Source: Acidobacteriota bacterium
Lineage (GTDB): Bacteria; Acidobacteriota; Thermoanaerobaculia; Gp7-AA8
Direction: 5' to 3'
Length of the DNA: 64,000 bases
Assembly: GCA_003223645.1 (NCBI GenBank)
Contig: QHVT01000006.1
Location: 248,001-312,000, forward strand
A program made the position numbers and the translations under genes. Within the stretch, counting starts at the first letter, position 1. Every line of letters starts with the position of its first letter. The notes under the pieces were generated by a model. The model was given only the letters and a program-made list of their open reading frames with translations, searched no databases and had not been told where the DNA came from. Shown here in pieces: positions 5,667 to 50,690 of this stretch.

Positions 5667-6626
5667 TCAGCCGAGGGGCCATTCCAGCTCGCCGAGAAAA
5701 CGCTCGTCTTCGCGCCAGCGCTCGTGCACGGCCACATGTAAATCCAGAAAGACTTTCGCGCCGAGGATCGACTCCAGCTCGACGCGCGCCTCGGTGCCGA
5801 TGCGCTTGATCATCGCGCCCTGCCTGCCGATCACGATCGGCTTCTGCGAGTCGCGCTCGACGACGATCGTCGCGTAGATCTTGATCAGGTTTTTCTCTTC
5901 GTCTTCTTCGTAGCGTTCGACGGCGACCGCCGTCGTGTACGGCAACTCTTCCGAGGTGTGCTGCAGCACTTTCTCGCGCACGATCTCGGCGGCGAAAAAG
6001 CGCTCCGGCTGCGTCGTGTAGTCCTCTTTCGGATAAGCCGCCTCGCCGGGAGCGACCGCCTGGAAGAGCAGCGCGATCAGCTCGTCGACGGCTTCGCCTT
6101 TCGCCGCGGAGATCGGAACGATCTCGTCGAAGATGCCGAAGGCGTTGTACTGCTCGATCAGCGGCAGCAGTTTGTGTTTCTTCAACAGATCGATCTTGTT
6201 GAGGATGACGAACCAATTTTGTGGAGTGGTGAGCGCCTCCGGCGCTCTTTCAGAAGGCGCGCCGGGGGCGCGCACTCCGCGCTCTTTCTCCTCGCGCAAA
6301 AGATCGATCACGAACTGATCGCCCTTTCCGAACGGCTCCGACGCGTCGACGATCAGCGCGATCACGTCCGCCTCGGACAACGCCGAGCGCACGTGATCCA
6401 TCATCCGCACGTTCAGCTTGTGCAGCGGACGATGAATCCCCGGCGTGTCGAGCAGCGCGATCTGCCCGCGCGGATCGTTGAGGATTCCGACGATGCGATT
6501 GCGCGTCGTCTGCGGCTTCGCGGAAACGATGGAGACCTTATGTCCGAGGATGCGGTTGAGGAGCGTCGACTTGCCGGCGTTGGGACGGCCGACGAGAGCG
6601 GCGATGCCGAAACGAGGATTGGACAT
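5667..6626 (-). CDS. era: GTPase Era
   Basis: MSNPRFGIAALVGRPNAGKSTLLNRILGHKVSIVSAKPQTTRNRIVGI, DTPGIH, NKIDLL, C-terminal KH region. Contains an in-frame palindrome insertion (6223-6278). Confidence 0.95.
   Translation of the reverse strand: MSNPRFGIAALVGRPNAGKSTLLNRILGHKVSIVSAKPQTTRNRIVGILNDPRGQIALLDTPGIHRPLHKLNVRMMDHVRSALSEADVIALIVDASEPFGKGDQFVIDLLREEKERGVRAPGAPSERAPEALTTPQNWFVILNKIDLLKKHKLLPLIEQYNAFGIFDEIVPISAAKGEAVDELIALLFQAVAPGEAAYPKEDYTTQPERFFAAEIVREKVLQHTSEELPYTTAVAVERYEEDEEKNLIKIYATIVVERDSQKPIVIGRQGAMIKRIGTEARVELESILGAKVFLDLHVAVHERWREDERFLGELEWPLG
6223..6278. repeat. Palindromic element inside era coding sequence
   Basis: ggagtggtgagcgcctccggcgct...ggcgcgccgggggcgcgcactcc imperfect inverted repeat. 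Confidence 0.75.
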
Positions 6627-6635
6627 GGTCAGCAG

Positions 6636-6736
6636 ATGAAGGCAGAAGGCAGAACGCAGAAGGCAGAACGAAGAAGGATCGTGTTTGCACACTCGCTTCT
6701 AACTTCTGCCCTCTGCCTTCTGCGTTCTGCCTTCAT
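6636..6736. repeat. Inverted repeat with GGCAGAA-type tandem arms
   Basis: atgaaggcagaaggcagaacgcagaaggcagaacg...cttctgccctctgccttctgcgttctgccttcat. Confidence 0.9.
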
Positions 6737-15949: not shown

Positions 15950-16149
15950 GCCTCCTGGCCTCCTGGCCGCCCAGGGGAAACCTCTGCACAAGTCGTCATC
16001 CTGAGCCGGCGAAGCGCGGCGAAGGATCTCAAAATGCGAAACGCTTGTAATTTCGAGATCCTTCGCCGTCTATGCGGCTCAGGATGACGTGCATCAGATG
16101 TGGTCAGAGCTTCCCTAGGAGGCCTGGAGGCTGAGAGGCCGGGAGGCCC
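15950..16149. repeat. Nested inverted repeat: GTCATCCTGAGC palindrome (15994-16089) inside CCTCCTGG-type tandem arms
   Basis: Outer arms gcctccgagcctcctggcctcctggccgccc / ggaggcctggaggctgagaggccgggaggcc; inner cgtcatcctgagccggcgaagcg...gcggctcaggatgacg. Confidence 0.85.
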
Positions 16150-16863
16150 TCAGAACCTGATCCGCTGCAATTCCTGCTTCGCCATCGAGGCCGATGTCGA
16201 ATACGGGTAGCGCTCGATCACTTGCTGCAGCGTCTTGCGCGCGAGGGCGAGGTCGCTGGTTTTCTCGTGGACGAGGGCGGTTTTGTAGAGGGCGTCGGGG
16301 GCTTTGTTCTGGTCGGCGAAGTCGGTCGTGACGCGGGCGTAGTAGCGCAGCGCGTTGGTGTAGTCGCGGGCGGCGAAGTAGGTTTCGCCGATCCAGAAGA
16401 GGGCGTTGTCGGCGAGGTCGCCGGCGGGATCGGCGTCGAGGACGCCCTGGAATCCCTGGCGCGCTTCGGCGTAGGCGCCGCGGCCGTAGGACATGATCGC
16501 CTTGCGATAATCGTCGGCGATTTTGGCGCTCGCCAATGCGCCCTGCGGCGGAGCTGCGACGAGCGGCGCGGACGGACGCGAGACTTGTGGTGTGGTCGCC
16601 GGAGTGGTGCGCGCCTCTGGCGCGCTTTCGGGGGACGGCGGCGCGCCAGAGGCGCGCACCACGCCGGCTTCTTCGAGGCGCGCGATGCGATCGTTCAACA
16701 CATCGATGCGCTCGAGCAGCTCCGTGACTGATGTCTGGAGCTGGCCGACGCGCGGGTCTTCGACCGGCGGCTGCGGAACCGGCGCGACGGCGTCATCTTG
16801 CGCCGTCGACGCGCAGGCGGCGGCGAAAAGGAGCGCGGCGGCGGCCCACAACGGCTTCTTCAT
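16150..16863 (-). CDS. Tol-Pal system protein YbgF/CpoB-like (coiled coil plus TPR)
   Basis: Signal/lipobox MKKPLWAAAALLFAAACAS; coiled coil; YRKAIMSYGRGAYAEARQGFQGVL...NALFWIGETYFAARDYTNALRYYARV TPRs. Contains an in-frame palindrome (16604-16662). Confidence 0.88.
   Translation of the reverse strand: MKKPLWAAAALLFAAACASTAQDDAVAPVPQPPVEDPRVGQLQTSVTELLERIDVLNDRIARLEEAGVVRASGAPPSPESAPEARTTPATTPQVSRPSAPLVAAPPQGALASAKIADDYRKAIMSYGRGAYAEARQGFQGVLDADPAGDLADNALFWIGETYFAARDYTNALRYYARVTTDFADQNKAPDALYKTALVHEKTSDLALARKTLQQVIERYPYSTSASMAKQELQRIRF
16604..16662. repeat. Palindromic element inside the cpoB/ybgF-like coding sequence; perfect 22-bp arms
   Basis: gtggtgcgcgcctctggcgcgc - 15 nt - gcgcgccagaggcgcgcaccac. 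Confidence 0.92.
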
Positions 16864-18535: not shown

Positions 18536-18702
18536 AGAAGGCAGAAGGTAGAAGGCAGAAGGCAGAAATGAAGATGGATTTGCGAGCACAGACCAAGAAT
18601 GCAGAGCGCAGAACGCAGAACGCAGAATTGAGATGCCCGCCCGCCGGCCAATCCGGGTGTGTTTCTAAATTCTGCATTCTGCGTTCTGCCTTCTGCATTC
18701 CT
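18536..18702. repeat. GGCAGAA tandem run followed by inverted repeat with GCAGAAC-type arms
   Basis: gagaaggcagaaggtagaaggcagaaggcag... ; aatgcagagcgcagaacgcagaacgcagaatt ... aattctgcattctgcgttctgccttctgcatt. Confidence 0.88.
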
Positions 18703-18774
18703 GGACCGTGCGCGCAACCCTTCCCCTCGAAGCGCGCACGAGATGACGGAGCATCTGTACCTGTCACCCTACCC

Positions 18775-19576: not shown

Positions 19577-19668
19577 CCGTCATCCTGAGCGCAGCGAAGG
19601 ATCTCAAAATACGCAAACGTTTCGCATTTTGAGATCCTTCGTCGCGCTTCGCCGACTCAGGATGACGG
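19577..19668. repeat. GTCATCCTGAGC-family palindrome
   Basis: ccgtcatcctgagcgcagcgaaggatctcaaaatacgcaaacgtttcgcattttgagatccttcgtcgcgcttcgccgactcaggatgacgg. Confidence 0.9.

Positions 19669-48916: not shown

Positions 48917-50690
<1,774 letters not shown>

Follow-up and report, generated by a model that had tools for sequence, protein, structure and literature searches.

The palindrome at positions 16604-16662 of the window (the whole 64,000-nucleotide stretch of DNA analysed here) belongs to a family of about 100 inverted pairs, most of the sampled complete ones lying inside genes and nearly all of those being read in a single phase. With a probability of roughly 80%, we regard the family as a recently amplified, lineage-restricted REPIN-like element that inserts indiscriminately, with purifying selection keeping the genic copies that preserve the reading frame.

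In-frame palindromes in a cpoB/ybgF-like gene and in era

Two genes of the window carry a copy of the element:

16150..16863, minus strand: host gene, CpoB/YbgF-like, with signal peptide, coiled coil, Ala/Pro linker and TPR_6 repeats
16601..16665, minus strand: complete element, two inverted REP-like arms and a 15-nt spacer, encoding GVVRASGAPPSPESAPEARTTP
16604..16625, plus strand: left perfect arm, GTGG-T-GCGCGCC-TCT-GGCGCGC
16641..16662, minus strand: right perfect arm, the sequence of the left arm on the opposite strand
5667..6626, minus strand: host gene era (GTPase and KH domain)
6222..6278, minus strand: decayed second copy, in Era, encoding GVRAPGAPSERAPEALTTP, with one Val codon missing from the left arm

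An earlier note on this DNA had described an in-frame palindrome with perfect 22-bp arms in the cpoB/ybgF-like gene, and the description is accurate: over their full 22 nt, 16604-16625 matches the reverse complement of 16641-16662 without exception. The inverted repeat extends to 16598-16625 / 16641-16668 (28 nt, 96%), and it folds into one long hairpin (z = -8.9 against shuffled sequence). The minus-strand reading frame 16150-16863 runs through the palindrome, GVVRASGAPPSPESAPEARTTP being read at 16600-16665; ASGAPPSPESAPEAR is a predicted tryptic peptide of this insert and ASGAPPPEGAPEAR a predicted relative of ASGAPPSPESAPEAR. The signal peptide and coiled coil of the protein were recognised by reading the sequence, without a prediction tool, and the insertion site is its Ala/Pro linker. 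Because the linker around the insert varies in all relatives compared, absence of the insert from them is not demonstrable residue by residue.

With up to 3 mismatches allowed, the 22-nt arm has three matches, where shuffled sequence predicts 0.01. The Era insert was correctly assigned by the earlier note to the same element family as the cpoB insert: it is a decayed member read in the same phase, with diverged arms and a left arm that has lost one GTG codon. Of the further claim that both copies share orientation and frame, the shared frame stands; a shared orientation says little, since the element hardly differs from its reverse complement and the spacer alone is directional. In alignments with the Era proteins of L207-L209 and L211-L213, which represent six related MAGs, the insert is absent from all of them, and the Era peptide is thus not ancestral. 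Relatives of Era place the host among the acidobacteria, near 'gp7' / Thermoanaerobaculia MAGs. In an AlphaFold model of modest overall confidence (mean 66), the insert is a disordered coil (pLDDT <50, residues 118-134) between helix 101-115 and strand 137-143, which carries NKID.

Two other acidobacterial Era relatives (L210 and L206) carry different palindromic insertions, in frame and in the same loop. The one at L210:1354-1541 is a palindrome with 74-nt arms and ends GTCATCC...GGATGAC, and that at L206:1331-1400 consists of two hairpins in tandem. These sequences support the view that the Era loop is permissive and may have taken up different palindromes independently.

Architecture and copy number of the family

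Searched at up to 2 mismatches in the 6.38-Mb genome, the core GTGCGCGCCTCTGGCGCG occurs 98 times forward and 99 times in reverse, against 3 and 4 for a reversed-pattern control, and from this arm count we put the family at about 100 inverted pairs genome-wide, the further copies for which the earlier note had proposed a search. In consensus, an element reads GGAGTGGTGCGCGCCTCCGGCGCGC, followed by 5-21 nt of spacer and then by the reverse complement. Each arm consists of GTGG-T and a perfect 7-bp mini-hairpin, GCGCGCC-tcc-GGCGCGC; a single arm thus has the architecture of a REP and the inverted pair that of a REPIN. Elements are 55-71 bp long, about 60 nt, and add 19-24 amino acids in genes. 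The spacer is far more variable than the arms, and its peptide varies freely. The family appears confined to a narrow lineage: in a set of 60 related genomes that covers the same genus, no strict inverted pair was found, the exact 25-mer arm had no match in GTDB genomes (a search that may omit the window's own genome), and Rfam gave no match at the element.

More than 10 palindromic families occur in the genome, whose sampled inverted repeats were clustered with strict overlap. Palindromes of the form GTCATCCTGAGC...AAGGATCTC, at 15997-16091 and 19588-19648 of the window, make up a separate dispersed family, one copy of which separates the cpoB-like gene from the gene next to it. Repeats of the AGAAGGCAG type form inverted arrays at 6636-6736, 18536-18717 and 48917-49012; this type is the largest inverted-repeat cluster sampled, with 147 in 2.8 Mb, mostly intergenic. 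Palindromes of other families lie at 46710-46866, 44556-44637, 47978-48058, 61603-61667 and 2465-2530.

Host proteins of the inserts

The family is also present twice in a glycerol kinase gene elsewhere in the genome:

L204:16749-18296: glycerol kinase gene with two in-frame copies

In the alignment to 6ude, a gap preceding the conserved YALEGS motif coincides exactly with one of these inserts, and the second lies just beyond the end of the alignment. As for Era, comparison with intact orthologues indicates that the peptide is not ancestral. Other hosts include a histidine ammonia-lyase-like protein, tryptophan synthase alpha (where the copy sits at the very N-terminus, possibly ahead of the real start), gamma-glutamyltranspeptidase and signal peptidase, among others. 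In a genome of the same genus, most matches to the hosts are 12-25 aa shorter across the insert and a few show little length difference; as the comparison is by match length, it does not prove absence of the insert at each site.

Such inserts could in principle be an artefact of gene calling or assembly, GC-rich palindromes holding spurious reading frames open and the window cases being ancestral low-complexity linkers. The element is indeed open in almost all reading frames, and the CpoB linkers of relatives are Ala/Pro-rich as well. We nevertheless give this explanation hardly any weight. Recognisable Pfam domains are present in 16 of the 20 host proteins checked, which are unrelated to one another, in most genic copies the coding signal keeps one phase across the two flanks, and the alignments of Era and glycerol kinase orthologues without the insert contradict it.

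Genic placement, phase and length

Placement was counted in 2.815 Mb of tiled DNA (44% of the genome), with genes called by an in-house hexamer model (84% coding in the tiled DNA), for 49 well-matching complete pairs; a pair was taken as genic if it lay wholly inside a called gene. By this definition 32 of the 49 are genic and about a third lie outside genes. The phases of the genic copies are distributed 28/2/2 (n=32), phase 0 being GGA-GTG-GTG-CGC..., and half-elements in genes likewise tend toward the same reading frames. A flush length of 2 mod 3 is seen in 25/32 genic copies against 6/17 others (Fisher p=0.005); seven genic copies are off the frame-keeping length under a simple no-duplication model. 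Target preference was considered as the cause of the phase bias and rejected: coding sites weighted by that preference predict 26% in phase 0, against the 28/32 (88%) observed (p=4e-13).

In phase 0 the arms encode GVVRASGA and APEARTTP, and the resulting linker, GVVRASGA...APEARTTP, would be flexible, neutral and hydrophilic, rich in Gly, Ala, Pro and Thr. Reading in the other phases yields peptides rich in Cys/Trp or in Arg. The genic to non-genic ratio is 32:17, compared with an expected coding target of 86%; as a rough estimate that leaves non-genic losses uncounted, about a third of genic insertions would survive relative to non-genic ones, near the phase-0 share.

The same observations may be read in terms of function, with the element adapted to or selected for coding, its peptide serving for example as a regulatory linker and copies kept for it. 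The dominance of a single phase, the decay of the Era copy by exactly one codon and in frame, and the preference of genic half-elements for the same frames all fit such a function. Arm substitutions by codon position, however, are similarly distributed whether a copy is genic (7/8/19) or non-genic (7/9/20), a pattern that offers no evidence for function of the encoded peptide and on which we rejected purifying selection on it. The host proteins are unrelated, the spacer peptide is free to vary, non-genic copies are common, and a survival filter accounts for the phase bias. A functional peptide is on this evidence distinctly improbable, and the frame bias has the appearance of selective survival among insertions. 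The earlier note had proposed selection for a coding-compatible frame in a protein-coding mobile family. The first part draws support from the one phase that prevails far above target preference; against the second stand the openness of nearly all frames, the third of copies outside genes and the matching substitution patterns.

A related reading, to which we allow a small but real chance, is that the element evolved coding compatibility and was not merely filtered for it. On either strand its two arms read, in one and the same phase, as a harmless linker, and its core is mainly a multiple of three. If this reading were true, approximately one in four to one in three chance insertions into genes would do no damage.

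Target site and insertion

The terminal bases of the element alternate between G and C alone, with a Y/R preference immediately outside. From these flanking letters, the likeliest inserted segment is GAGTGG...CCACTC, which would enter at Y-S^S-R and duplicate nothing. On this reading the core is two nucleotides shorter than the flush length and, for the majority of genic copies, a multiple of three, and the rejoined flanks are ordinary codons, mostly Ala and Gly with a few Pro and Arg. The commonest end dinucleotides of the family are CA and CG. Work on TnpA-REP shows that cleavage directed by GTGG can fall at CA or CC (PMC8266576), a resemblance that is suggestive only.

Short, palindromic, species-specific and high in copy number, the element might also be a classical MITE, its arms being the terminal inverted repeats of a DDE-transposase IS and its movement a cut-and-paste process that duplicates the target. 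We hold this to be unlikely: target duplication of at least 2 nt is absent in 43 of 49 copies, in the 2.8 Mb sampled no arm pair encloses a segment of the size of a transposase gene, and each arm is a GTGG-tagged hairpin of REP-like form.

A second REPIN-like family and the RAYT gene

A single Y1_Tnp/RAYT gene was found:

C4:52935-53816 (C4:53122), locus L054: Y1_Tnp/RAYT gene, flanked by four copies of family B

Family B is REPIN-like, GTGGAGCGGC...GCCGCTCCAC, with about 100 pairs in the 2.8 Mb sampled, and is also open in most frames. It is genic in 26 of 100 cases, with phases 6/16/4; genic residence is commoner in the GTGG family (32/49; Fisher p=6e-6). Given these flanks, the RAYT was rejected as a demonstrated cognate mobiliser of the GTGG family: it is cognate to family B, not demonstrably to the GTGG family. 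The cognate RAYT may have been lost or left unassembled (the genome is about 97% complete), or the single RAYT may mobilise the GTGG family in trans.

A model for persistence in coding DNA

The preferred reading, a REPIN-like element filtered by purifying selection, can be put as a sequence of steps. An element of about 60 nt, composed of two inverted GTGG-tagged REP hairpins, would have been amplified recently to about 100 copies, probably by single-strand transposition through a Y1/HUH (RAYT-type) transposase. Its flanks suggest that it would enter short Y-S^S-R sites, genic and intergenic alike, and leave no target duplication. Purifying selection would then purge most genic insertions, and the survivors would mostly be those with a core divisible by three that entered between codon positions 1 and 2. 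Both arms would in that case be read as a hydrophilic Gly/Ala/Pro/Thr linker that surface loops could tolerate; the peptide would thus be translated and the insert presumably neutral.

Relation to known systems

The nearest precedents are intragenic REPs and the palindromic elements of Rickettsia (RPE; Ogata et al. 2000, 2002). According to reviews (PMC10969869, PMC2229807), RPE lie in frame in many unrelated conserved genes, and the present family is like them in consisting of mobile-looking palindromes in frame in unrelated conserved genes and tolerated by the protein. It differs in size (55-71 bp, against 105-146 bp for RPE; PMC2229807), in tag (GTGG, against CGTC in RPE-4/6; PMC3733652) and in host, an acidobacterium, RPE being Rickettsia-specific. 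In Opitutus terrae, intragenic REP dimers of GTAG families, some with GTGG (GTAG-20), encode 20-30 aa (PMC3733652). These share with our family the REP dimers in reading frames, the GTGG hairpins and the presence of several REP families per genome. Most REPs in that survey are intergenic, and it also names flexible linkers as neutral sites (PMC3733652). In the present family, genes hold two thirds of the complete pairs, and almost all of these genic pairs share a single phase.

Pseudomonas REPINs are likewise inverted doublets of tagged (GTAG/GTGG) palindromes that form a hairpin and occur in many near-identical dispersed copies. They are predominantly extragenic (of the 1,067 commonest 16-mers in SBW25, only 14 overlap genes), and each RAYT examined is flanked by REPs (PMC3116915); here, in contrast, 32/49 are genic and no cognate RAYT with the same REP flanks was found. 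Inverted repeats also occur in protein-coding genes of Nematomorpha mitochondria; those are long, perfect (up to 284 bp) and animal mitochondrial (PMC6649704).

Rickettsia is the best-known case of in-frame palindromes, and genome decay is a possible excuse there. Here, a gene-dense acidobacterial genome of 6.4 Mb tolerates inserts in conserved proteins, among them Era, a histidine ammonia-lyase-like protein and glycerol kinase. With about 100 natural insertions of near-identical sequence, the sampled ones mostly across different proteins, the family is a natural experiment on tolerated sites and frames. It shows a route by which a mobile repeat can survive within coding DNA, and it opens to test whether repeats evolve harmlessness there.
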